The position numbers and the translations under genes are program-made. Positions 1,411 to 13,157 of a stretch of DNA of 20,655 bases are shown piece after piece; within the stretch, counting starts at the first letter, position 1, and each line of letters opens with the position of its first letter. The stretch is taken from the IMG/VR virus record IMGVR_UViG_3300022752_000471, positions 1-20,655 of that record. One strand, given 5' to 3'. A model generated the notes under the pieces. That model was not told where the DNA came from. It saw nothing but the letters and a program-made list of their open reading frames with translations, and ran no database searches. Source of the DNA: a virus.

Positions 1411-1426
1411 AGTGGCCTCCAAAATG

Positions 1427-1460
1427 AAAAAAAGCCCGCGCTGGCGCAAACCAGGCGGGC
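1427..1460 (-). terminator. Strong intrinsic terminator after the radical SAM gene
   Basis: On the minus strand GCCCGC-CTGG (1460-1451) pairs with CCAG-(C)-GCGGGC (1444-1434) around a 6-nt loop, with a single bulged base at 1440. Seven T residues follow immediately (1433-1427). This is a textbook rho-independent terminator. It closes the tail/fibre-modification transcript and sits just before the ribosome binding site of the lysis cassette. Confidence 0.9.
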
Positions 1461-1479: not shown

Positions 1480-2838
1480 TTAGGCGGCGACGACAGGAAT
1501 CGGGAACGGTTTGACGGCTCGCGCTGGCGCCTTGGTGCCGGCCTTTGTAAAGCCGAAAATATCTTTGCGATCATCTGGCAGGGCACCGTCGATGTAGATC
1601 GGCACCCATCCAGTCAGGAACTCGATTCCTGCAGCAAAGATCGGCAGCGCGTCCGAGTAGGCGTTGTTGCAGGACACCTCCCACAGAGGACCTTCTAGGA
1701 ACATGCACGATCCCTTGCAGATTTGCAGCACCGGACACCTCGGGCACTCCGCACGCTTCGACCAATGCGTTGCGGTTTTCAGGGCAACAGCGCCTAGGTC
1801 GCTGGTGTGCCCGATCCGATGTGGTTCGCCGTTCGGGGCGTTCGCCCTGGCACTAACGTTCTGGCAGGTCAGTACGTTGCCGCGCAAATCGACGGCAACA
1901 GAATCCGGATGGTCCATGCCGCACTTTTGCCCAAGAGAACTTGCGGGACGACGCGTGCGGATCGAATTGACGAAGGATGCGATCCTGTCCTTTATCGCTG
2001 CGAAATTCGCAGTCTGACCGGTTCTAATCTCCTGGAAGGCTCGGGTGCGAAAGGGATGAAAGTCGTTCGGGCCGAGCGAAGTGGCAAGTCCACCCTCGTC
2101 GTAGGCATCAACGACCGATCCCTCGCCGATCGGAACATCCTGATCGCCCGTCAGCTGTACAAAGAATCGGACCACCTCAGCGCGCGAGACGTTGTGCCGG
2201 TTCATCATGGCGTTAAAGCTTACTCGGCGCTTGGGAGCAAGGTGCCGATAGAGATCCAGGATCGCCGCACGGTGCTCCGGATTGGCCAGGGGATCAGGGC
2301 CGCGCACATGCTGCCCGGGGCCGTCATGGGAGATGCCGACGTTGAAACCGAGCTCGTCGAGCCACTCGTTGATCTCCGGCGAAAGCAAAGACCCGTTGGT
2401 GATAATCCCGAAGGACGCGTCCGGGTACTTGGCACGCAAGGCATCTGCTAGCGGTCGAAGTGTCTTGATGTAGACGAGCGGCTCACCGCCCCAGAATTCA
2501 ACGCGCTCTGGTTGAGCAGTCACCCACCGATCAAGGTCACTAAGAAACCCCTCTACGTCGCCAGGATTGGTCTCATCGGCGCGAGGCACAAAGCGCTGGG
2601 AGCAGTATTCGCAAGAGTAGTTGCAGGACAGTCCGAGAGAGATTTTCAGCACCCGCGGGGTGATCTTGCCGAGGGGCTCGGCACGAGAAGTACGCGCGGC
2701 TACGGGCCGTTCGGCGACCCCGTGCGCGGGAACGAGTGCCTGGCCTTCCGCGTCGGTTAGGTCCCCGGTCTGGTTGTCATAAAAGATCGCACGACGCTCT
2801 CCGGTCGACGGCCGAAGGGCATGGATAGTGAATTTCAT
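1480..2838 (-). CDS. Radical SAM/SPASM-domain enzyme, putative protein maturase
   Basis: This 452-residue protein has the radical SAM cluster motif CNYSCEYC (C72, C76, C79), the SAM-binding WGGEP motif at 116-120 and an ITNGS strand at 146-150. Its C-terminal SPASM domain is complete: C306...G320-x4-C325, then C365-x2-C368-x5-C374-x3-C378, and C390. That is the layout expected for two auxiliary 4Fe-4S clusters. SPASM enzymes typically modify peptides or proteins (thioether or C-C crosslinks, Cys/Ser to formylglycine). About 60 residues precede the core and may be a substrate-recognition segment; I do not recognise a standard RRE there. The start overlaps the upstream oxygenase stop as ATGA, with AAAGGG 6 nt upstream. 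The substrate is unknown; the Cys-rich fibre tail encoded in the same unit is the obvious candidate. Confidence 0.9.
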   Translation of the reverse strand: MKFTIHALRPSTGERRAIFYDNQTGDLTDAEGQALVPAHGVAERPVAARTSRAEPLGKITPRVLKISLGLSCNYSCEYCSQRFVPRADETNPGDVEGFLSDLDRWVTAQPERVEFWGGEPLVYIKTLRPLADALRAKYPDASFGIITNGSLLSPEINEWLDELGFNVGISHDGPGQHVRGPDPLANPEHRAAILDLYRHLAPKRRVSFNAMMNRHNVSRAEVVRFFVQLTGDQDVPIGEGSVVDAYDEGGLATSLGPNDFHPFRTRAFQEIRTGQTANFAAIKDRIASFVNSIRTRRPASSLGQKCGMDHPDSVAVDLRGNVLTCQNVSARANAPNGEPHRIGHTSDLGAVALKTATHWSKRAECPRCPVLQICKGSCMFLEGPLWEVSCNNAYSDALPIFAAGIEFLTGWVPIYIDGALPDDRKDIFGFTKAGTKAPARAVKPFPIPVVAA

Positions 2839-3515
2839 GGCTGCCCTTTCAACGGACGATAGAGATCGGTGTAGTTGTGAGACGTCACGCGTAAGGTGAT
2901 GGCGAGGAGCGTGCGGCTGCCCTCGGATGTGAAAGCGTTCGTCTCATGCCAGATCGGCGCCGGGTGAAGGATCACGAGCCCCGGAAAGGGGTCGATGAAC
3001 CGTGTCTTCTCCCAGAAGGGAAACGACGCCATCGGCCGCGGATCGCAGAGGATCAGTTCTCCGTCTCCTACAGAGCGTTCGCGCTCTGAAAAAGGTTTCC
3101 GGTTCGAGCCAGTCTCCAAATACACGCAGAGCACGTGGTCGCAGGTGTGGTGATAGTGAGGAAGCGTGCGACGACCTCGCTCAAGATGGACAACCGGCAA
3201 GATGCGCACGACGAACTCGATCTCTTGGGCGTTGCGCACCTCAAGTGCCTCGCGCAGATACCGTCGGTAGATCTCATCGATGTAGTCCTGCAGCCGACCG
3301 AAAACCGGCTGTGGCGCAAGCGCTCGGTACGGCTCCATGAGCAGATTGAATTGGTGGCTGAGCGCCATGTTGACGTCAGGTAGAGAACAGGTTGAGCCAC
3401 CTTCGTGAAACAGGGTGCGTGCGCGTTTGGCGAACTCGGAGAGCGCCTGGATCTCGTCGTCAGCGAATGGAGCGACCTCACGCAGGACCGGCGTAGGCCA
3501 GAGATACTCAATCAT
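2835..3515 (-). CDS. Putative 2OG-Fe(II) oxygenase (PF13759-like)
   Basis: A 226-residue protein from the ATG at 3515, which has GGAGG 7 nt upstream; the much longer in-frame extension lies inside the neighbouring gene and is rejected. The opening IEYLWPTPVLREV resembles the start of the 2OG-FeII_Oxy_5 family. A double-stranded beta-helix is suggested by LPHYHHTCDHVLCVYLE (candidate ligands H120/H122/H123, also D126), GDGELILCDPR, and the distal PAPIWHETNAF (H190) followed by R201 in GSRTLLAITLRV as possible 2-oxoglutarate anchor. The first metal site is not a clean HxD, so active-site assignment is tentative. It overlaps the preceding oxygenase by 8 nt and the radical SAM gene by 4 nt, indicating coupled translation and a shared job. 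Confidence 0.7.
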   Translation of the reverse strand: MIEYLWPTPVLREVAPFADDEIQALSEFAKRARTLFHEGGSTCSLPDVNMALSHQFNLLMEPYRALAPQPVFGRLQDYIDEIYRRYLREALEVRNAQEIEFVVRILPVVHLERGRRTLPHYHHTCDHVLCVYLETGSNRKPFSERERSVGDGELILCDPRPMASFPFWEKTRFIDPFPGLVILHPAPIWHETNAFTSEGSRTLLAITLRVTSHNYTDLYRPLKGQP

Positions 3516-4107
3516 TGGCGACCTCCAGACCAAAACTGATGGCAACCCGCAGTGCCGGGCAGTAACGGGAAAGAGGACGTGCGCCGTGAAGCGCCGTGCC
3601 GTCGAAAACGACTGCGCGATTCGGGCGTACAACAACGCTTCGTACGATCTCTCGAGCACCGTCAAACAAGCAGAAGTCGCCGCCCCATTCGGGATCCCAC
3701 GTCGGCACCGGGTACCAGACCACGGTTCGCGATTGCCCTGAATAGGTTTCGGGGAAATCGCGATGGATCGCTGCCTCGTCCCCAAAAGACTGGGCATTGA
3801 CCCATACCCGTGTGAGCCCACGACCGGCAAAAAATCGCTCGCTGATGCGGGTAGCGACGCGCGAAAGCGGGGTGTCAGCGTCAACAAAGCGCTCGAAAGT
3901 CATCGTAGGATCGACCGCACGGTCTTCGTAGTGGTGGGAATGGATTCCTGGCAGGACGTAGTTGCGGTGCCAAAAGGTCCCACTCGAGTCGCGCCGCGCC
4001 TTCCAGCCAAACAGCAAGGTCTGTCCGGCTAGCCAAGCGGTGGTGGCATCGGTGAGCACAGGGTCGATCGCCTCATCGACGATTTCCATCGGGCCTACAG
4101 GGCGCAT
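3508..4107 (-). CDS. 2OG-Fe(II) oxygenase, prolyl/aspartyl-hydroxylase-like
   Basis: A 199-residue protein with the canonical dioxygenase signature: H115-x-D117 in AAIHRDFPE, distal H174 in VVFDGTALHGARPLS, and R187 in ALRVAISF as the 2-oxoglutarate carboxylate anchor. The WVNAQSF strand and the WGGDFCLFDGA turn fit the prolyl-4-hydroxylase-like double-stranded beta-helix fold. Such enzymes hydroxylate protein side chains or small molecules using Fe(II), O2 and 2OG. The start at 4107 follows a GGGGTGG; an alternative ATG at 4089 exists. It overlaps the preceding gene by 13 nt and the next oxygenase-like gene by 8 nt. It is only distantly similar to that neighbour, so the two are probably not a recent duplication. 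Confidence 0.88.
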   Translation of the reverse strand: MRPVGPMEIVDEAIDPVLTDATTAWLAGQTLLFGWKARRDSSGTFWHRNYVLPGIHSHHYEDRAVDPTMTFERFVDADTPLSRVATRISERFFAGRGLTRVWVNAQSFGDEAAIHRDFPETYSGQSRTVVWYPVPTWDPEWGGDFCLFDGAREIVRSVVVRPNRAVVFDGTALHGARPLSRYCPALRVAISFGLEVAND

Positions 4108-4796
4108 TCGGCCACCCCGGTGAAAAAGCGAAACCCGACCTTGACCTTCGCCCCGTTAACCGGGGAGATCACGGTATTGGTGGCAATGTTGGCCGCGACT
4201 GGCGTGCGGGCGGAGCGAAGCCATCCACCTGTGCATTCCCAATAGAGTTCAGTGCCCGTGAGGTCGAACGGCTGATCGCCACGGGATACGGTAGCGGTCA
4301 GTTCAATGCCATTGGCCGTCGTCACTCGGGCCAGCGAAATCCGTGGAAAAAATTCGCGAGAGAGGTCCCGCCACTGGGCTGCACTGAGCACTTCGTCCAC
4401 ACCGAGTGCAGAAACGTCGTCCGACTCAGCGACAGTTATACCCAGCGCCGATTCGGTAGGTGAGGCAACCAGGAGGACCGATCTCCAAAGTGCACCGCCC
4501 AAGAATCGTGCGAGTGGCCTTTTGTCGATATAAGTGGCCGCATAGACGTTTACCGGATCGACGTCATCAGTGCCCATTGCCCAGACCGAATAAGCGTGTT
4601 TCGGTTGCCCCGCGAGTGCGCTGAAGATTTCGAGGTCGATCGTCGATGTGCGCTTTGTAGCGTCTGGGGATGATTCACCTTCACTGGAGGCTTCGGTGGT
4701 GACATCTGCGCCAACAACCTGGGTCAGCATCGATCCCGAGCGCGACCATTGCCGGCGAAGCGGATTGTCGTAGCGGCGGACTGCATAGAGCTTCAT
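4095..4796 (-). CDS. Hypothetical protein between tail fibre and oxygenases
   Basis: A 233-residue protein that I do not recognise. The start at 4796 has GAGGAG 8 nt upstream, and the longer in-frame start overlaps the fibre tail codons. The N-terminus is basic (KLYAVRRYDNPLRRQW). A low-complexity acidic/Ser/Thr linker lies around 32-50. A mixed region follows, then a C-terminal beta-rich segment (about 155-233: ELTATVSRGDQPFDLTGTELYWEC, KVKVGFRFFTG) recalling Ig-like or baseplate upper-protein beta-sandwich domains. Only two cysteines are visible near the end. It lies 11 nt after the fibre and directly before the modification enzymes. It could be a fibre chaperone, a second virion component or an adaptor for the enzymes. 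Confidence 0.8.
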   Translation of the reverse strand: MKLYAVRRYDNPLRRQWSRSGSMLTQVVGADVTTEASSEGESSPDATKRTSTIDLEIFSALAGQPKHAYSVWAMGTDDVDPVNVYAATYIDKRPLARFLGGALWRSVLLVASPTESALGITVAESDDVSALGVDEVLSAAQWRDLSREFFPRISLARVTTANGIELTATVSRGDQPFDLTGTELYWECTGGWLRSARTPVAANIATNTVISPVNGAKVKVGFRFFTGVAECAL

Positions 4797-4807
4797 GACC
4801 GGTCTCC

Positions 4808-5770
4808 TCAGGCGCCGCCACAGCAATTGCAGTTGCAATCGCAGTTGCAGTTGAAGTTATACCGAACGGATCGAAGCTGGAGCTGACTGCCGTTATCAAT
4901 CAACTCAGTGCGCACTGTTGCGACGTTCCCGCTTCCGTAGCAATTGATCGGCACCTCGGGAATACAGTTACCAGCGTTGCCGTTGCAGTTGACCAGCGTA
5001 GGCGCGCAATTTGAGACGGATGAGAAGAAGTAGTCGTGTAGCCATCCATAATTGGCAGTCCACATCGAGCCGCTGTTGTTCATGTACATGTCCCAGTTGC
5101 CGTCGGACTTCAAGAATCCCATCAGGTTGCTGTTGACATGCAGATAGCGGGTCACGTTGTCCGTGTCCTGCATGTTGATGGTCGGGGCGGTGTTCTGAAT
5201 CGTCAGATTGCCCGTCATCGTGTCGCCGGTCTTTGCGACCCGGCTCGACAGGTCAATGTTGACCGTCGCGTTCCCAGCGGCGTCAGGCCCGGCACCATTG
5301 ACGGACCTCACAAACGCGGTGGAGTCATAGCCATCGAGCTTGTCGGCGTCGGCGGCCTTGGCGGTGATGCCGAGATAGGCGGCGTTGTGGTTGTGTGTGC
5401 TCGACGCAAAAGCGCTCGCGTGTTGACCATCAAGCAAGTCGGCATCCAGCCCAGTACCCGCACCATCCACAGTCAGCAGCTTCGCCAGAACATCGGCTGC
5501 CGTGTAGCTCGCGGCATTGAGCTTGGCTGCGAACTGGGTATCGATGCCGCTCGCCAAATCCATGATGAAGCGCCAGTTGTCCGGGTTGGTCCCGATCAAC
5601 TGGTAGAGCTTCAACTGATCCGTGCGGTAGCACAGCATCCCGATCTGAAGGTTGGTTGTTGGGAAGGTGGTGCCGCTGTTGCACGAGCTGGCGGTCTTGT
5701 CGTTGTTCAGAATCTCGATCAGAGAATCGGACAGCGTTCTGGACGACGGTATGTCGGTGAAGTTTTGCAT
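4808..5770 (-). CDS. Tail fibre protein with Cys/Asn-alternating C-terminus
   Basis: A 320-residue tail fibre. Two LDG repeats (DADLLDGQHASAF about 109-121 and DADKLDGYDSTAF about 141-153) and KTGDTMTGNLTI (180-191) are standard fibre-shaft motifs. The distal part (200-300) is rich in Asn, Gly and aromatic residues, consistent with a receptor-binding head. Cysteines cluster at 254, 262, 269 and 277. The chain ends with C308, C310, C312, C314, C316 and C317 alternating with Asn/Asp, then GGA. Such a tail is very unusual for an extracellular fibre and would be expected to chelate metal, form disulfides or be enzymatically modified. The gene abuts the preceding stop with no gap and leads the unit containing the oxygenases and the radical SAM enzyme. 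Confidence 0.85.
   Translation of the reverse strand: MQNFTDIPSSRTLSDSLIEILNNDKTASSCNSGTTFPTTNLQIGMLCYRTDQLKLYQLIGTNPDNWRFIMDLASGIDTQFAAKLNAASYTAADVLAKLLTVDGAGTGLDADLLDGQHASAFASSTHNHNAAYLGITAKAADADKLDGYDSTAFVRSVNGAGPDAAGNATVNIDLSSRVAKTGDTMTGNLTIQNTAPTINMQDTDNVTRYLHVNSNLMGFLKSDGNWDMYMNNSGSMWTANYGWLHDYFFSSVSNCAPTLVNCNGNAGNCIPEVPINCYGSGNVATVRTELIDNGSQLQLRSVRYNFNCNCDCNCNCCGGA
4811..4858 (-). other. Cys/Asn-alternating C-terminal tag of the tail fibre
   Basis: Residues 305-320 read NFNCNCDCNCNCCGGA. Six cysteines alternate with Asn/Asp at strict two-residue spacing. The codons vary (AAC, AAT and GAT; TGC and TGT), so amino-acid selection rather than simple DNA slippage probably maintains it. It is a candidate metal-binding knot or modification site. 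Confidence 0.8.
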
Positions 5771-7123
5771 CTAGTACCCCTGTGCAATCCAGGTGAAGGA
5801 GCCGGTCACGCGGGTGCCGGAACTGTTTTCGAGGACGGCTGTGAAGCCTGTCGTTGTGACTGCACCGAGCAGCCGAGGGATCGCCACAGCTGTGCCGCCC
5901 TTGTGGGTCATGGTCACCTCGGGTGGCACGCGGAAGCTGCGTGTGAAATTGATCACTGCGCCTGCGGCCGCATCGGTGATCTGTGCAGTGCCGCGATCGA
6001 AGATGTCGGGGACATCCACGGTGACGCGTAGACCGTCGATGTAGCCGCGGTCGGAATTGCGCGAATTCAGGATGGCCCGGAATAGCGCGCGACGGTAGGT
6101 GTAGTCGCCCTGAATGAAATCCCTGAAGTCGGTGTACCCGGGCGGGTGACCGGCCTCGACGATGGCAACGAAGTCCTGTTCGGTGATCTCCGTACTGCCA
6201 ACGATCATGTCGCTGATCACGCCGTTAGCATGTCTGCGGTACTGCTCGGCAAGAAGCAAGGCCTCCTGCGCGGTCAGTCTCACCGCTTTGCGCAGCGCAT
6301 CAGAAACCGCAAAGCCCTGAGCCAGATTTCGGCGGTAGGCCACCGTGCGGCCCAGTGCCTCGCCTATCGTGATCGCCTCAGCGACGCGCTTGACCGTCTG
6401 CCTTGCAGCCTTGTCGGTCGTACCAAAGGCCTCGGAGAAGGGTTTGCGTACCTGCTTGGCGCCCAGGTCGCTTACACCCAGACTTTCGCTGATGCGCAAA
6501 ATGAAGGCGATCAGATCGGTGTAGGTTTCGGCAAACGCGACGGCCTCCGAGATGCGCTTGGTCATCTGCCGATCCAAGTCGTCACTCAGCCCAAAGGCTT
6601 CGTAGGAATTCTTGGTGACCCCGCGTTGCGGGAGCTCAGAAATCGGCAGACTTTCGGCCAGGCGCTTGACGCCTCCCTTGCGAATCACATCACCCCAGGC
6701 TAGGCTCTCCGCGGTGGTCTTTGTAAGCACTCGGGTTAGATAGTCGGATGCCTGGAAGGACTCCTGCACCTCCTTGCGACTGGCTTTCCCGAGAGCCTTG
6801 CCAAAGGACATCGTTTCCACCCAACGAAGTACATAGGCGATCAGGTCTGAGTAGGTTTCCCCAAACCCAATTGCTTCTGATTCGCGCAGGATCAATTGCT
6901 TGGCCAGCTTTTCTGCAAGGGCCAGCGTTTCACTCGATCGCTTCGTCCACTGCCTACCGGTAGCCTCAACGAAGGCCAGCGTCACAGCCACTGCTACGTT
7001 GTAGACAGCAGGATAGGCCGTGGTCCAGTTCTTTCCGGCGCTGGCGCTCGACCATGCAAAGCCGGCGGTTGCCCAGGTGTACCTCGCTCCCTGGGTCTCG
7101 CTGACCGTCACCGTATCGGGCAT
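5771..7123 (-). CDS. Tail fibre/shaft protein with 18-residue tandem repeats and lectin-like C-terminus
   Basis: A 450-residue virion protein in three parts. Residues 1-60 form a Tyr/Ala/Trp-rich N-terminus. Residues about 61-297 are some 13 tandem units of about 18 residues with consensus K-R-x-x-E-A/S-L/F-x-x-S/G-D/E-x-L-x-R/K-x-x-x. Residues 318-450 hold a short helical segment and a beta-sandwich-like domain ending GSFTWIAQGY, resembling the H-type lectin or similar fibre-tip domains. The protein lies between a small tail-tip protein and the 320-residue fibre and abuts the latter's start. It is likely an extended shaft with a carbohydrate-binding tip. The family name is uncertain; virion location is inferred from position. 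Confidence 0.75.
   Translation of the reverse strand: MPDTVTVSETQGARYTWATAGFAWSSASAGKNWTTAYPAVYNVAVAVTLAFVEATGRQWTKRSSETLALAEKLAKQLILRESEAIGFGETYSDLIAYVLRWVETMSFGKALGKASRKEVQESFQASDYLTRVLTKTTAESLAWGDVIRKGGVKRLAESLPISELPQRGVTKNSYEAFGLSDDLDRQMTKRISEAVAFAETYTDLIAFILRISESLGVSDLGAKQVRKPFSEAFGTTDKAARQTVKRVAEAITIGEALGRTVAYRRNLAQGFAVSDALRKAVRLTAQEALLLAEQYRRHANGVISDMIVGSTEITEQDFVAIVEAGHPPGYTDFRDFIQGDYTYRRALFRAILNSRNSDRGYIDGLRVTVDVPDIFDRGTAQITDAAAGAVINFTRSFRVPPEVTMTHKGGTAVAIPRLLGAVTTTGFTAVLENSSGTRVTGSFTWIAQGY
6233..6943 (-). repeat. Coding tandem repeat, about 13 units of 18-20 residues
   Basis: Conserved Glu residues fall at 65, 83, 103, 121, 139, 157, 175, 193, 213, 231, 249 and 287 of the 450-residue protein, with one unit (near 268) lacking it. 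Spacing is 18 except for two 20-residue units, which carry the near-identical phrases ETYSDLIAYVLR and ETYTDLIAFILR exactly 110 residues apart, suggesting a six-unit block duplication. The units have diverged at DNA level, so the array is old. Confidence 0.85.
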
Positions 7124-7668: not shown

Positions 7669-10600
7669 CTAGTACAGCCGCAAACTGGTAAAGGCTCCGA
7701 TTGGCGCGAGCGCCGAACTGGCTGACTCCACATCGCCGCCCATCCGACCGACAAAAAGCCGTCGCTCGGTGGCGGTCTGGCACACGCCGATGCACACGCG
7801 ATCTGTGCTCGATATCCCGAAGGGCACGCTCACTCGCCTGGACAGTTGGTCCTCCAGAAAAAACGCTGCCGTTGTGGCGTCATAGCCCACGAGGAGCGAT
7901 CCTGCGGGGCCAATGGCCGCCCAGATCACGCAGGTGGTGACCTCTGCCGGTATGAACCAAAAGGAAGTGTGAAACACCGACGGGATGCTCACCGACCAAG
8001 CCACGCGGGTGGTATCTCTGACCATGAGACCGTCGCCATACCGGCCGGCGGCATAGGCGACGCCTGCGGCCTGGCTTGAGACTGGACTGCCAAATCCACC
8101 GTCAAGGCCTGCGGTAGAACCGTTAAGACGCCAGCCGTAGACCTCACCGGCTTGCAGTGCATCTTCCCTGGCGATCTGAAACCGGGCATCCACGTTGGCA
8201 ATCGCACCGTCATAAGCCCACTGGCGCTTTGCCGCATCGCTGCTCCAAGGGAAATTCGCCTCCAGCCAAGTGGTGCGGTCATCGACCGAAGCCCCGAGGC
8301 TATTGAGCAGCGTGTTCTGCGCGTGGATGGGTGAGACAAGATCCACCTCAAACAGGTACTCAGCCACCTGGGCACCGGTGCTCATGCGCAGCACATTGCG
8401 ACCGTTGACCGAGACGACAGAAGCGAAGTGCTTGATACCAGGAAATCCCAGCGCCTGCTCATCGCGCGCCAGGATCAAATTGGCGTTCTGCGGCTGGGCA
8501 ACGACGGTTGAGACAAAGGTCGGCGTGTCGCTGTAGATGCCTGGGGAGGCAATCGCCTTGATCCAAAACTTGCGCTCTCCATCAAACCCCGAGGGCAGCG
8601 TGTAACTGGTGGACTTGACCTCAGCCACAAAGAGCGAGGCATCCCAAGCCGCACCCTCACGAAGCTCGTACCCTACGACTTCAGGCTCTGGATTGGGCTG
8701 CCACCGAAACTCCAGCCGGTTGGCCGACTGCACCACATCGAACTGACGCACGGTAGTGGGCGCTTGCAGGCTCAGCACGAAGGTCGTGACGTGGGCGCTG
8801 TAATTGCCTGAGGTGTCGTAGGCCCGAATGTGATACGGGTAAAGGCCAGCCGCGCTTTGGTCGTGGACCATCTGCGTGCCCGCGGTCTTGGCCACCAACT
8901 GCCCGTTATCCCAGCCAGCACCCACGCGGACCTCGTAGCCTGAAAGGTCTGCATCCTGGAGTTCATCCCAGGAAATCAGCAGATCGGAGACCCGGCGCTG
9001 CACCAAGAAGCCCGTGACATCCGACGGCGGCAGGGTCTTACCCAGAACCGTTGCGCTCAGGGTCGCAGGAACGCTCTCCTTGCGCGTGATACCGATCGCA
9101 CGCAGGCTGAATTCATACGCGCCTTCTTGCGCATCCCGGATTTCGACGTAGTTAGCGCTGGTGAGCGGCAGGCTCACGAAGTTGCCGCCTGCCACCCGGT
9201 AGGACAGCCGGTAAGCGACTGCGGTCTGCACCTCGCTCCAGGACACCTGAACCAACACCTGCGCCTGGTCTTTGACCCGGTACAGGCTCTCTTGCATGGA
9301 GAGCCCTGTCGGTGCTGGTGGCATATCCGAAAGGACGGTGATCGAGCGGGGCTGCAATGCCAGCCCCTTTTCAATCGCATCGAACTTGCTCGGGTTGTAA
9401 GCGAGTGCGGTGACTTCGTGAACCCCAGGATCCCGCTCGGCGACCGCAACCACCCGAAAGAGTTGCGGCTCGATGATGGTCGATGAAAGCACCCAAATGG
9501 CGCCAGCCTGCGGCACCGCACTGAACGGGATCGTCACCGTCAAGGCTCTGCCCGAAATCGGACCCACCAGGCGTTCCTCAACCGCCCCAGTGGGCAAAAT
9601 GACCGATAGCCGCCATGGGAGATCCGCTGGCAGGTCGTGATCCAAGGTGACCGTGCTGGCAGTTGCCGCAGCGATCCGGCCCCCAAGACGCATGCCTCCT
9701 CGAACCGGGTCGGCGACTTTGATGACGTCCCCCGGGCGCACCACGGCACCCTCCAGGCCCGTGCGGAAGGTAACGATCTCGGATTCCGACTGCTCGGAAT
9801 ACAAGAGCCACTTACCGACCCGGTGCGCCTGCCCCCTTGAGGTGCATCCCAGCGCCACCACTTCGCTTTGCACGATGCCGTAGCGGGCGATACCGGCGGC
9901 GTCCTCGACGTACTCCACCTTCTGGCGGTAGAAGTCTTCGGGGTCGTTCCAGGTGACCAAGGCCACCGTGTGCCTCGCCTTGGCCGATGACCCCTGGTAG
10001 GCAAATTCGCCATCCACGACATTGCTGGGCGCAAATTGGTAGACCGGATCGGCAGGCGCATCCTGCGTGACCGTGATCGCACCACCGGACCAGTACACCA
10101 TGCCCCGAAAGATCGAGGCCATGTCCTGCACGACCTTGTAGGCCTGCTCCCGCGTCTGCAAGTACAGGTTGCAGGTAAAGCGCGGCTCAAAGCTGCCCAG
10201 CCCGTTGGGAACCAACTGGTCGCAGTATTGAGCTACCCGATAGAGCGCCCACTTATCGACCTGGGCCTCGGGGATGTAGCCACCCAAGCCATAGCGGGTA
10301 CTGGTCACCAGGTCGTAAAAGCACCAGGCAGGGTTATCGGTCCAGGCGATCTTGAAAGTGCCATTCCACACACCGCTGTAAGCGCGCGTGGCTGGGTCGT
10401 AGTTCACAGGAACACGTACCCGCAGCAACTTCATGTCGTAGCTGCGCCGCGGGATGTTCGAGAACTGGGATGCATCGACCCGAAGCGCCACCAAGGCACT
10501 GTTGGGGTAGCGCAGCTTGCTCTCGATGACCTCGGTGTATGAATCTACGAAGGTCTTGTTCTGAATCGCACTTGAGGTCGAGTCCGCCGTGATCCGGCGC

Positions 10601-11181
10601 ACACGGATATCCCAGGGGCCACTGCCCGTGAGCGGCACGTAGTAGCTGCGCTGGTACTTGGTCGTGGTCTTGCCGGAGATCGTGTCGTTGATCATCTCGA
10701 CGAACCCACCGCCGTTCACTTGGCGATCGATCGCAAAGTTCACCGTGCTGCCATTGAGATCGCCGTTGGTCGTGTCCTGGTTGGTCAACTGCGGCACGCT
10801 GACCTTGATCCGCACCGCATCCACATCCGGATCAGTGATGGAGCGCACCACCGGCTGGCTCGCCTTGACCTCGACGCCAACGACCACCTCGTTTTCAACA
10901 GACGAGAACCCGGGGACATAGCTTTGCTGCTGGCTGCCGTTGCGGGTCTCCAGGGTGACGCCAGAGAAGTTGGTCGAGCCATCAGGGTTCTGAATGGGCG
11001 TGTCGTCCAGGTAGACCGATTGCAGGCCGTCGACCAGCCCTTCGATCTCGCCCTCGGAGATGAGGTCAACGACACGCGCGTAGGCTTTGGACCGCAGGCT
11101 GTCTGGGGCCTCTTGCGCCACACGGGCGCTTCCTCCACCGCCTTTGCCGCCACCGCCCGCACCAATGATGAGTTGGCTCAT
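7669..11181 (-). CDS. J: Tail tip / host specificity protein J
   Basis: A 1170-residue protein of the lambda gpJ family that forms the tail tip and carries receptor specificity. It begins with the typical Gly-rich segment (IIGAGGGGKGGGGSARVAQ) and the LRSKAYARVVDLISEGEIEGL phrase. The conserved tail-hub region occupies about 1-600, including WCFYDLVTSTRYGLGGYIP. Three fibronectin type III-like domains follow (about 620-715, 717-803, 804-895), each with a W...Y pattern. The last about 170 residues look like a concanavalin/LamG-like lectin domain (RYGDGLMV, HTSFWFIPA, ERRLFVGRMGG), which is not the usual lambda J end. The start overlaps the I stop as ATGA. The next genes encode further adhesion modules, so J may act with them in host recognition. 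Confidence 0.95.
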   Translation of the reverse strand: MSQLIIGAGGGGKGGGGSARVAQEAPDSLRSKAYARVVDLISEGEIEGLVDGLQSVYLDDTPIQNPDGSTNFSGVTLETRNGSQQQSYVPGFSSVENEVVVGVEVKASQPVVRSITDPDVDAVRIKVSVPQLTNQDTTNGDLNGSTVNFAIDRQVNGGGFVEMINDTISGKTTTKYQRSYYVPLTGSGPWDIRVRRITADSTSSAIQNKTFVDSYTEVIESKLRYPNSALVALRVDASQFSNIPRRSYDMKLLRVRVPVNYDPATRAYSGVWNGTFKIAWTDNPAWCFYDLVTSTRYGLGGYIPEAQVDKWALYRVAQYCDQLVPNGLGSFEPRFTCNLYLQTREQAYKVVQDMASIFRGMVYWSGGAITVTQDAPADPVYQFAPSNVVDGEFAYQGSSAKARHTVALVTWNDPEDFYRQKVEYVEDAAGIARYGIVQSEVVALGCTSRGQAHRVGKWLLYSEQSESEIVTFRTGLEGAVVRPGDVIKVADPVRGGMRLGGRIAAATASTVTLDHDLPADLPWRLSVILPTGAVEERLVGPISGRALTVTIPFSAVPQAGAIWVLSSTIIEPQLFRVVAVAERDPGVHEVTALAYNPSKFDAIEKGLALQPRSITVLSDMPPAPTGLSMQESLYRVKDQAQVLVQVSWSEVQTAVAYRLSYRVAGGNFVSLPLTSANYVEIRDAQEGAYEFSLRAIGITRKESVPATLSATVLGKTLPPSDVTGFLVQRRVSDLLISWDELQDADLSGYEVRVGAGWDNGQLVAKTAGTQMVHDQSAAGLYPYHIRAYDTSGNYSAHVTTFVLSLQAPTTVRQFDVVQSANRLEFRWQPNPEPEVVGYELREGAAWDASLFVAEVKSTSYTLPSGFDGERKFWIKAIASPGIYSDTPTFVSTVVAQPQNANLILARDEQALGFPGIKHFASVVSVNGRNVLRMSTGAQVAEYLFEVDLVSPIHAQNTLLNSLGASVDDRTTWLEANFPWSSDAAKRQWAYDGAIANVDARFQIAREDALQAGEVYGWRLNGSTAGLDGGFGSPVSSQAAGVAYAAGRYGDGLMVRDTTRVAWSVSIPSVFHTSFWFIPAEVTTCVIWAAIGPAGSLLVGYDATTAAFFLEDQLSRRVSVPFGISSTDRVCIGVCQTATERRLFVGRMGGDVESASSALAPIGAFTSLRLY

Positions 11182-11771
11182 GCGGCGATCTCATCCACGT
11201 CAATGCCGGCGCTGATCACCGCCGAGCCCACTATCAATCGGCCGTAACCCACCGGCACGGGATGCCCCTGGGCGGTGGTGTTGACCGCACCATTGAAGCT
11301 GTAGCTGGGCCTATTTTCTGGGCGCTCCGAGGGCTCGGTGGCTTTTGGGGTGGGCGCAATCATCTGCGCCACGCCACCCAGAATCATTGCGGTGCCCACC
11401 GAATAGAGCGTGGCCTGCGACAAAAACGCGCCCGACGCCGCCCAGCCAAGCGGGTTCCACCAGGCCACGGCCAGCAGGGCTGCGCCCAGCAAGATCTGAC
11501 CAAGGCCATTGCCACCCGCACCGGAGACCACCGGAGCAATCGTGATGCGGCTCTGTCCTGTCGGCTCATGCAGACGATCCAGCGTCAACGCCTCACGACC
11601 AGCCAGCACGCGGTACCCCACGCCACGCTCGCCTGAGGCAACCAATTCCCGCTCAAAGGCCGGGAAGTTGGCCGCAAGCGCCCGAATGGCCTCGGCAGCC
11701 GATGAGATGGCCAGGCTATGCCTGCGGCCAAAGCGGCGCCCAAGTTCACCGAGAAGAATGATCGTGACCAT
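11178..11771 (-). CDS. I: Tail assembly protein I
   Basis: A 197-residue protein from the ATG at 11771. VTIILLGELGRRFGRRHSL is the usual family opening, whereas the upstream in-frame starts (11822, 11819) add a 17-residue tail that does not fit the family. No strong ribosome binding site is visible; the 26-nt overlap with K suggests translational coupling. The ubiquitin-like N-terminal half (EAIRALAANFPAFEREL) is followed by a Gly/Ala-rich hydrophobic stretch (about 100-150) and a C-terminal segment ending HPVPVGYGRLIVGSAVISAGI, typical of lambda gpI-like proteins. It acts in tail-tip assembly together with J and K. Confidence 0.92.
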   Translation of the reverse strand: MVTIILLGELGRRFGRRHSLAISSAAEAIRALAANFPAFERELVASGERGVGYRVLAGREALTLDRLHEPTGQSRITIAPVVSGAGGNGLGQILLGAALLAVAWWNPLGWAASGAFLSQATLYSVGTAMILGGVAQMIAPTPKATEPSERPENRPSYSFNGAVNTTAQGHPVPVGYGRLIVGSAVISAGIDVDEIAA

Positions 11772-12465
11772 GCCTGAGGATGTGTGTTGTGACTTTTTGC
11801 CAGTAGCCGCCGTAGACATCACGGCTGGAAAGACGCCCCTGCAAGTGATGGAGGATCAGCCCGTCTCCGAGATAGACCGCTGCGTGATTCGGAACGGGCG
11901 ACGCCACCTGCATCAGAAAGCAGTCCCCAACCTTTAGTTCGTCCGCACCCACCGGAAAGAAGCCAGCCTGGGCAAAGTTCTCCAGGTAGAGGTTCTCCCC
12001 GCGATTCCACCAGTCGTCAAAGCGCGCGAAGTTGGGCAACTCCACCCCGCGCTCTGCTCGGAACCAGTCGCGCACCAGGGCGTAGCAGTCGAGCACGCCG
12101 TGAGACCATTCGCGGCCCACCAAGGGGGCGACGTAGCCCGAGGGCTCGACACTTGCCCAGGTGGCGCTTGGGACACTCACGATGTACCAGGGCAAGCCAC
12201 TGGCCTCGCACGCCACCCGGTCGGCCTGACTGGGCTCTGGCGGGAGCCCCGGGTGGCTGTGCACCACGGCAACGATCTGGCCCTGCTCATCGGCTTTGGC
12301 GTAGTCCTCGGGGTGAATCACGAACTGATCGGTTCCCACGCCCAGGTTTCGGCACGGCCAGTACACCTCCCGACCTTTTCGGATCACAAGCAGCCCGCAC
12401 GACTCGCGTGGGTAGGCCTGCCGGGCGTGATCGAGCGCCAGGGCTTGGTTCCCAGGTGACATCAT
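11746..12465 (-). CDS. K: Tail assembly protein K: JAMM peptidase plus NlpC/P60 domain
   Basis: A 239-residue bifunctional tail-tip protein. The N-terminal JAMM/Mov34 domain has E21 (RESCGLLVI) and H69-x-H71-x7-S79-x2-D82 (VVHSHPGLPPEPSQAD), the complete zinc-peptidase signature. The C-terminal NlpC/P60 domain has C127 (HGVLDCYALV), H194 (VPNHAAVYLGDG) and H206/H207, a Cys/His peptidoglycan hydrolase set. In lambda-like phages this protein helps tail-tip assembly and local cell wall cleavage during infection. The start at 12465 is chosen because AAAGG lies about 10 nt upstream; the longer frame to 12540 would cover the plus-strand promoter of the toxin-antitoxin cassette. The usual neighbour L is about 800 nt upstream because of that insertion. 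Confidence 0.93.
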   Translation of the reverse strand: MMSPGNQALALDHARQAYPRESCGLLVIRKGREVYWPCRNLGVGTDQFVIHPEDYAKADEQGQIVAVVHSHPGLPPEPSQADRVACEASGLPWYIVSVPSATWASVEPSGYVAPLVGREWSHGVLDCYALVRDWFRAERGVELPNFARFDDWWNRGENLYLENFAQAGFFPVGADELKVGDCFLMQVASPVPNHAAVYLGDGLILHHLQGRLSSRDVYGGYWQKVTTHILRHGHDHSSR

Positions 12466-12501
12466 CGGTTGATACCTTTGTCGGAGCAGCGGGGGCATAC
12501 T

Positions 12502-12529
12502 TTGACAACCAACCGATTTCGGACATAAT
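12502..12529 (+). promoter_or_regulatory. Sigma70-type promoter of the toxin-antitoxin cassette
   Basis: A perfect TTGACA (12502-12507) is followed after 16 nt by CATAAT (12524-12529, 5 of 6 matches). It lies 34 nt before the antitoxin start and points away from the tail operon. This gives the inserted cassette its own expression in the lysogen. Confidence 0.75.
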
Positions 12530-12536
12530 TCGTTCC

Positions 12537-12563
12537 GCACTAATTTAGTAAGGCACTAATTTA
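12537..12563 (+). repeat. Operator-like direct repeat between promoter and antitoxin start
   Basis: The 11-base GCACTAATTTA occurs at 12537-12547 and again at 12553-12563, 16 bp apart, between the -10 element and the ATG. Such repeats are typical binding sites for autoregulating antitoxins. The ribosome binding site (AAGG) falls between the copies, so a bound repressor would cover it. Confidence 0.65.
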
Positions 12564-12844
12564 TGACTGTGCTCACTTCACATGCTACGGTCAAGGTCAT
12601 TGGGGCAAACGGCCAAATTTCACTGGGCAAGCAGTTTGCGGGTCGTCAAGTGCTGGTCGAAGAGCGCGAACCTGGTGTTTGGATGATCCGTACCGCTACG
12701 GTCATTCCTGACAACGAACGCTGGCTGCATGCGCCAGGTGCTGCGGCGGACCTGCGTGATGCGCTAAGCTGGGCGGCAGCCAACCGGGCAACCGACAACA
12801 ACACGGAGATGCTCATGAAGCGGCTGAGCGATGGCATCGAGTGA
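12563..12844 (+). CDS. AbrB/MazE-like putative antitoxin
   Basis: A 93-residue protein on the strand opposite to all phage genes. Its N-terminal half resembles a SpoVT/AbrB swapped-hairpin DNA-binding domain (ATVKVIGANGQISLGKQFAGRQVLVEE, then VWMIRTATVIPDN). The C-terminal half is an Ala-rich helix plus tail (AADLRDALSWAAAN, MKRLSDGIE) suited to binding a toxin. It is preceded by a good promoter and by direct repeats that could be its own operator. It overlaps the next gene by 14 nt, the antitoxin-first order of type II systems. The antitoxin role is inferred from fold and context. A plain prophage regulator is the alternative. Confidence 0.75.
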   Translation: MTVLTSHATVKVIGANGQISLGKQFAGRQVLVEEREPGVWMIRTATVIPDNERWLHAPGAAADLRDALSWAAANRATDNNTEMLMKRLSDGIE

Positions 12845-13157
12845 GTCGTCTGACAAGGTCTTGCTTGACCTCAACAACCCAACGTTTCAGGCCAGTTTGT
12901 TCAGTTTGCAAAAAATAGAACGACACGCAGCACTGGATACGCTCAACAAGATCCGCCAATTAACCTGGGCCCAGTTGTACCGGGATAACGGAATCAAGTG
13001 GGAAAAAATCGTCAGCGTTCGTCCGCCCGAGGGAATCGACGCAATCTATTCGCTTCGTATCACGCAATCACGCAGGGCCACCGCATCTCGTGATGGTCGG
13101 CACATGCGCTTGCTCACAGTCGCTCCTGACCACGACAGCACATACGGCCACAAATAA
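12831..13157 (+). CDS. Putative toxin of the AbrB-like cassette (RelE/ParE-like size)
   Basis: A 108-residue protein whose start overlaps the antitoxin stop by 14 nt. Residues 40-100 (IRQLTWAQLYRDNGIKWEKI, IYSLRITQSRRATASRDG, MRLLTVAPDHDSTYGHK) form the alpha-then-beta pattern with basic residues and a conserved DHDSTYG end seen in small RelE/ParE-like toxins and related uncharacterised proteins. I cannot name the family with certainty. Context (second gene, overlap, opposite strand, own promoter) supports a toxin. Being inserted between two essential tail genes, it is a typical moron position; it may stabilise the prophage or act in superinfection defence. Confidence 0.68.
   Translation: MASSESSDKVLLDLNNPTFQASLFSLQKIERHAALDTLNKIRQLTWAQLYRDNGIKWEKIVSVRPPEGIDAIYSLRITQSRRATASRDGRHMRLLTVAPDHDSTYGHK

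Follow-up and report, generated by a model that had tools for sequence, protein, structure and literature searches.

The question raised by this locus is what a radical SAM/SPASM enzyme and two 2OG-Fe(II) oxygenase-like proteins might do behind the gene of a phage tail fibre. The window, that is the whole stretch of DNA analysed, is a 20.7-kb IMG/VR viral record whose minus strand encodes a lambda-like tail module. This module includes the central tail tip protein J (7669..11181, minus strand; phrog_31, E printed as 0), to which the fibre is expected to be anchored. A unit of five genes on this strand encodes the fibre, a middle protein, 2OG oxygenases A and B, and the radical SAM/SPASM enzyme (rSAM); its gaps of 11, -13, -8, and -4 nt, listed in an earlier note on this DNA, are exact, and all five ORFs are open. 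The unit was also said to end in a strong terminator. A putative intrinsic terminator, an 8-pair stem followed by TTTTTT, is present downstream of the rSAM gene (1423..1452, minus strand), but the region has 6 such sites versus 5.8 in shuffled sequences, and since sites of this kind are no commoner than in shuffles, its designation as a strong terminator is only plausible.

The fibre, of 320 aa (4808..5770, minus strand), matches tail-fibre families (phrog_7389, 3e-10; phrog_19602, 4e-8) and is related to the fibres of Achromobacter phages JWF and 2-1 (31% identity). From the N- to the C-terminus it comprises an attachment region, 'DADLLDGQHAS' fibre repeats, a knob, and a Cys-rich tip. Its C-terminal end is as had been claimed, NCNCDCNCNCCGGA; a longer stretch read from the sequence is RYNFNCNCDCNCNCCGGA, and the end as given in the full account is YNFNCNCDCNCNCCGGA. 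The Cys/Asn tail NCNCDCNCNCC, the proposed substrate, was placed by direct reading at residues 307-317 (4820..4852, minus strand).

Among the matches listed there are 73 distinct tails beside genes of the same rSAM family, in which the residues between the cysteines are N (66%), A (14%), and D (12%), and synonymous codons are mixed in 65 of the 73, indicating that selection acts at the protein level. In a close relative, L002, the tail protein is kept and the DNA changes are silent. The possibility that the tail is a chance run of Cys or a DNA-repeat artefact was ruled out by the mixed codons together with the loci in which the pattern falls outside ORFs. The proteins bearing such tails fall into about 20 unrelated N-terminal groups among the matches listed, including lambda-like fibres and short proteins of T4-like phages; in three loci (L023, L032, L101) tail proteins of 67-79 aa adjoin several rSAM genes. 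Single linkage merged 79 of 88 N-termini through the fibre repeats, and for this reason a coverage rule was used instead for the grouping.

The strip was observed directly either at the C-terminus, which is its usual position, or ahead of a further, in part self-processing, domain. The Cys run stops exactly on the last residue in 35 of 74 tails among the matches listed. A Hint domain begins at the Cys right after the strip in L009, L010, L041, L283, L304, and the bacterial L146 (PF05203 above the cut-off for L010 and L041 and below it for L304; the rest called by sequence), and the place of Hint is taken by a 'CSKIIC' domain in several T4-like phages. Hint domains usually cleave; if they do so here, the strip would be left as a new C-terminus.

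The rSAM, of 452 aa (1480..2838, minus strand), scores 35.6 bits with PF04055 (cut-off 29.5) and 30.4 bits with the SPASM model TIGR04085 (cut-off 27), and falls clearly within phrog_1802 (2e-57); beyond JWF and 2-1 the phage collection gave only weak matches, in jumbo, Campylobacter, and unannotated faecal phages. Both the radical-SAM CxxxCxxC motif (C72, C76, C79) and the complete set of seven SPASM cysteines (C306-x13-G320-x4-C325, C365-x2-C368-x5-C374-x3-C378, C390), for which the pattern CX9-15GX4C...CX2CX5CX3C...C was used, are seen directly in the sequence and are invariant across the 21-22 aligned members. The closest fold to the AlphaFold (AF2) model of the enzyme (pLDDT 90.2) is that of CteB, solved as a thioether-forming maturase, with Z 24.2 over 357 residues, followed by ChlB (21.6), anSME (20.9), TigE (19.0), SkfB (15.6), viperins (about 15), and EpeE (13). 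The top of this list, obtained with a predicted structure, is dominated by peptide-modifying enzymes; a common fold is no proof of reaction, and as the nearest folds also include anSME, which converts Cys to formylglycine, and lower down the epimerase EpeE, the fold does not fix the reaction. Even the best-scoring RiPP maturase models stay far under their cut-offs (geopeptide 53 versus 400 bits, PapB 44.7 versus 340). The CteB alignment starts at residue 1 of the model, in which residues 1-55 form three strands only, and a full winged-helix (RiPP recognition) domain was not seen at this N-terminus.

Whether the enzyme and the tail belong together was assessed from both sides. Starting from the tail, viral contigs were scanned for DNA able to encode CNCNCNC, which yielded at least 120 loci; in 59 of them, among the matches listed, the motif is in frame and no more than 30 residues from the end of the ORF. 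An rSAM of the same family is present at 44 of these 59 C-terminal loci among the matches listed, in all 44 on the strand of the tail and downstream of it, the nearest rSAM gene lying anywhere from directly adjoining to 2.9 kb off. Nearly all of the 15 loci lacking it among the matches listed are cut off by the end of the contig or locus short of where the rSAM would be expected, and three of them (L014, L110, L116) are tiny ORFs, probably arising by chance. At the 53 loci among the matches listed whose CNCNCNC pattern falls outside any ORF, no rSAM was found.

Starting from the enzyme, loci were retrieved by rSAM peptide patterns only and pooled with the former set, giving, among the matches listed, 107 loci with distinct rSAMs on contigs that are fragmentary and partly redundant or related. 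A same-strand CxCxC protein lies within 4.5 kb at 89 of the 107 pooled loci among the matches listed. Where there is enough room upstream of the rSAM gene, 63 of 70 loci among the matches listed score by motif, one of them (L272) on the basis of a short, spurious-looking ORF. Reading the seven misses by eye revealed a Cys-rich tail protein in four, with a shorter motif in L309, L314, and L323 and past the distance limit from the best-scoring rSAM in L023, raising the count to 67 of 70 among the matches listed; L258, L279, and L281 are true exceptions, having an rSAM and no CxCxCxC anywhere in the contig. Of 102 control strands without rSAM, 5 contain CxCxCxC and 26 contain CxCxC, which on its own is therefore weak evidence; the longer CxCxCxC occurs at 53 of the 70 rSAM loci among the matches listed.

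The two surveys agree (44 of 59 and 67 of 70 among the matches listed), and the rSAM is not an enzyme regularly found without a Cys-rich fibre nearby, the finding that according to the earlier note would have spoken against its proposal. In bacterial genomes DNA of the CNCNCNC type is mostly simple-repeat noise, with one rSAM at 118 loci among the matches listed, away from any tail, and the argument is therefore carried by the viral contigs; in the two clear phage-type bacterial cases, L146 and L214, the contig also carries the rSAM gene, at distances of 1.4 and 1.8 kb downstream. The constant pair, a direct observation, is the Cys/Asn tail and the SPASM rSAM. A search of the open-access full-text literature found no report that connects radical SAM enzymes with Cys-rich tails of phages.

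The other genes of the unit are less regular companions. Oxygenase A (3508..4107, minus strand) matches PF13640 (35.4 bits, cut-off 27; 2e-8) and has the HxD/E...H metal triad, H115/D117/H174, and relatives of it, as seen in a search with this protein alone, are common in cyanophages. Oxygenase B (2835..3515, minus strand), which is PF13759-like with an HxH...H arrangement, is just over the cut-off (27.1 bits, cut-off 27). In 56 relatives of the latter two His are invariant, and the residue two positions after the first His is H in 71% and D/E in 25%, which leaves just the outer two His as certain; the phage collection contains no relatives of oxygenase B at E 1e-5. The oxygenases had been proposed to hydroxylate Asn and Asp of the tail. 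Genes for 2OG enzymes are present at 46 of 107 rSAM loci among the matches listed, and the residues between the cysteines do not differ between tails with and without them (N 0.67 versus 0.64, D 0.11 versus 0.13); with no correlation between 2OG genes and the Asn/Asp content of tails, the proposal of Asn hydroxylation is left unsupported. The same count (46 of 107 among the matches listed) rules out these enzymes as a constant, essential part of the system, in which they are retained as optional.

The middle protein, of 233 aa (4095..4796, minus strand), has no Pfam, PHROG, or NCBIfam match. Its family is present at 58 of 107 rSAM loci among the matches listed and is thus a regular member of the cassette, and an alternative middle protein occurs at nine loci among the matches listed. 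The AF2 model (pLDDT 82.8) is rich in beta structure at the N-terminus and has an Ig-like C-terminal domain resembling intimin 1f00 (89 columns, rmsd 3.0); a fold search retrieved nothing but this Ig-like C-terminus and unnamed phage proteins. The predicted Ig-like fold suggests an accessory or presenting protein, not an enzyme. The middle protein had not been weighed in the earlier interpretation of the locus.

A further optional member is a tryptophan halogenase. Strong homologues are encoded at five loci, and Trp is found in or beside the tail at four of these five versus two of the 84 others among the matches listed (Fisher 3e-5, for an association noticed post hoc in phages that are partly related). 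The tails end with CACACW in L007, CDCACW in L301, and CACW in L315, and L313 has CDCFW; in the two loci with Trp and no strong halogenase, Trp is located at the start of the tail. A weaker halogenase homologue, of the L321 type, is present without Trp in the tail. At the level of sequence the association is a lead, consistent with tailoring of the tail, and no proof of it.

Tail proteins that are unrelated to one another share both the strip and the accompanying rSAM, which would be explained most simply if the strip were the substrate of the enzyme; maturation of the Cys/Asn fibre tail by this rSAM is considered likely. The strip, with Cys at every second residue and mostly Asn, Ala, or Asp in between, would be modified by the SPASM rSAM post-translationally, before or during assembly of the virion, most likely through a radical reaction at the cysteines that forms thioethers from the Cys sulfur to a nearby residue. 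The middle protein with its Ig-like C-terminus would probably serve in presentation or decoration of the tip, the 2OG oxygenases and, in some phages, the tryptophan halogenase may introduce optional further changes, and the receptor-binding tip so produced would be rigid and of unusual chemistry. The role of the tail as rSAM substrate, the thioether nature of the bond, and receptor binding by the tip are all inferred; the phages thus probably build, to judge from their genes, a chemically modified tip with which to grip the host. A fuller version, to which we give an even chance, is that of a RiPP-like cassette in tailed phages of many lineages, whose product is the phage's own receptor-binding fibre tip and in which the rSAM crosslinks alternating Cys-Asn strips; hydroxylation and halogenation of tryptophan would be optional, and a Hint domain would sometimes release the finished end.

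Thioether formation is probably the chemistry involved, considering the predicted fold and the Cys/Asn/Asp pattern. The 14% of Ala between the cysteines was counted against this reading; to our knowledge, Ala is not a usual ranthipeptide acceptor. The SPASM-type enzyme PapB forms Cys-to-Asp/Glu links, and its substrates may have Cys-Xn-Asp spacings of n = 0-6 (PMC9413430), a range that makes the close C-N/D spacing of the tails chemically reachable. The case for the system as a whole is built from sequence and predicted structures, and it has to be weighed against four other explanations.

The strict alternation of Cys suits beta geometry, and with the Cys run ending at the last residue (the above 35 of 74 tails among the matches listed) it would also fit a metal-loaded tip, a trimeric beta needle whose alternate inward cysteines bind metal or Fe-S clusters, the rSAM helping to build the site or working elsewhere. 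There is a precedent in the T4 gp37 needle, in which a column of essential His from three chains holds seven iron atoms (PMC6957217). A dedicated SPASM radical enzyme is superfluous for a plain metal site, however, whereas the rSAM is the constant partner, and the tails of L312 and L329 are long and multi-segmented, unlike a needle; such a tip is regarded as unlikely, if worth keeping in mind. Very unlikely, in our judgement, is the oxidation of Cys to reactive formylglycine-like aldehydes which could attach the tip covalently to the host surface: the formylglycine-maker anSME is among the nearest folds, but it ranks after CteB and ChlB, and the sequence surroundings of anSME substrates are absent from the tail, which counts against this explanation. 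The pattern of alternate residues, the Asn-rich strip, and the nearby 2OG enzymes bear what we take to be a likeness to polytheonamide and would favour epimerisation, with the rSAM making alternate D-residues and the strip becoming a polytheonamide-like beta-helix; the epimerase EpeE is a clearly worse fit to the fold than CteB, and this route is highly improbable. It is scarcely credible that the rSAM and 2OG genes are cargo without any relation to the fibre genes, placed behind them by chance in variable regions: host-recognition regions of pelagimyophages are known to acquire cassettes, radical SAM included (PMC7029224), but the 0 of 53 controls versus 44 of 59 loci among the matches listed, the uniform strand, and the many unrelated tail proteins speak against coincidence.

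Maturation of the fibre tail by its rSAM partner would have several consequences. The system would be new as a kind, though assembled from known enzyme families. Phage receptor-binding tips have so far been viewed as plain folded protein, sometimes metal-bound; tailoring by radical chemistry would be a new layer of host recognition, would account for the presence of radical SAM genes behind fibre genes, and would offer a source of crosslinking enzymes working on protein ends. Receptor studies usually express fibres without the cassette, and such fibres may then miss the real tip. Achromobacter phages JWF and 2-1 are both cultured and allow direct testing.

Among known systems, the pelagimyophages, which are marine T4-like phages, carry radical SAM cassettes in their tail-fibre/host-recognition region, and the part of the source available makes no link between them and Cys-rich tails or fibre modification (PMC7029224). 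The T4 gp37 needle is similar in having a specialised C-terminal receptor-binding tip with regularly spaced side chains of the ligand type; these are His in gp37 and Cys here, and no sequence relation between the two was seen. We know of no modifying enzyme for gp37. As in the ranthipeptide/SCIFF maturases CteB and PapB, a SPASM rSAM gene stands beside a Cys-rich substrate, here a proposed one, CteB is the nearest fold, and Cys adjoins residues of the Asp/Asn type. In contrast to the small leader-bearing peptides of those systems, the proposed substrate here is the C-terminus of a 320-aa phage fibre, and it has alternating Cys-Asn instead of CX3D; some relatives are tail proteins of 67-130 aa. 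The likeness to RiPPs would be one of analogy, lying in the proposed working, whereas the maturase scores, the leader peptide, and the peptide size place the system outside that class. The closest parallel is found in JWF and 2-1, whose fibres, unlike that of the window, have a Hint domain after the tail and whose cassettes have no 2OG gene annotated; their enzyme, annotated merely as a radical SAM or sulfatase maturase, belongs to the same family, phrog_1802, and their genes follow the same order of fibre, middle protein, and rSAM.

In the phage tail proteins of six loci a Hint self-processing domain lies immediately after the Cys/Asn tail, the normally C-terminal strip proposed as the substrate of the radical SAM/SPASM enzyme (rSAM). 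These proteins are encoded at L009 (7823-9265), L010 (7700-9151), L041 (758-1585), L283 (2527-4041), L304 (3864-5297) and L146 (1340-2905), the last being a phage-type locus in a bacterial genome. A tryptophan halogenase (PF04820) is encoded 3' of the rSAM gene, within the cassette, at L007, L301, L315, L313 and L257, and in four of these five loci a tryptophan is located inside the Cys tail or ends it. Phage cassettes adjoining rSAM genes also code for a protein with an asparagine synthase-like WSGGIDST motif (L078, 4577-5614; weak match to PF00733; family in 14 loci) and a DctP-type solute-binding protein (L078, 5655-6602; PF03480, 3e-43; family in 10 loci).

The window's oxygenase-like protein 2OG-A (3508-4107) matches phrog_274, named 'DNA endonuclease V', while its Pfam match is 2OG-Fe(II) oxygenase; its cyanophage relatives bear the same endonuclease name, which, judging by these matches, is probably a spreading annotation error. 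Just 5' of the fibre gene, a 450-aa protein with repeated segments (5771-7123, minus strand), whose end weakly matches H-type lectin (7e-4), is possibly another adhesin. The tail module also encodes a tail protein with fused Prok-JAB and NlpC/P60 domains (11746-12540, minus strand, from domain matches) and, on the opposite, plus strand, two small genes (12563-13157) that by eye look like an antitoxin/toxin pair.

Salmonella phage SPN3US (L249) has two radical SAM genes, gp102 and gp103. Adjoining them, at about 9150-10180, are Cys/Gly/Ser-rich proteins with C-x3-C repeats (DCGGTCSWTCSNGCSHGCSSCSG... and DCGGTCSFSCSSCSGGC...), in frames differing from that of annotated gp100, which appears to be a misassigned reading frame. 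The C-x3-C proteins of SPN3US are possibly a second type of Cys-rich phage protein with an rSAM partner.
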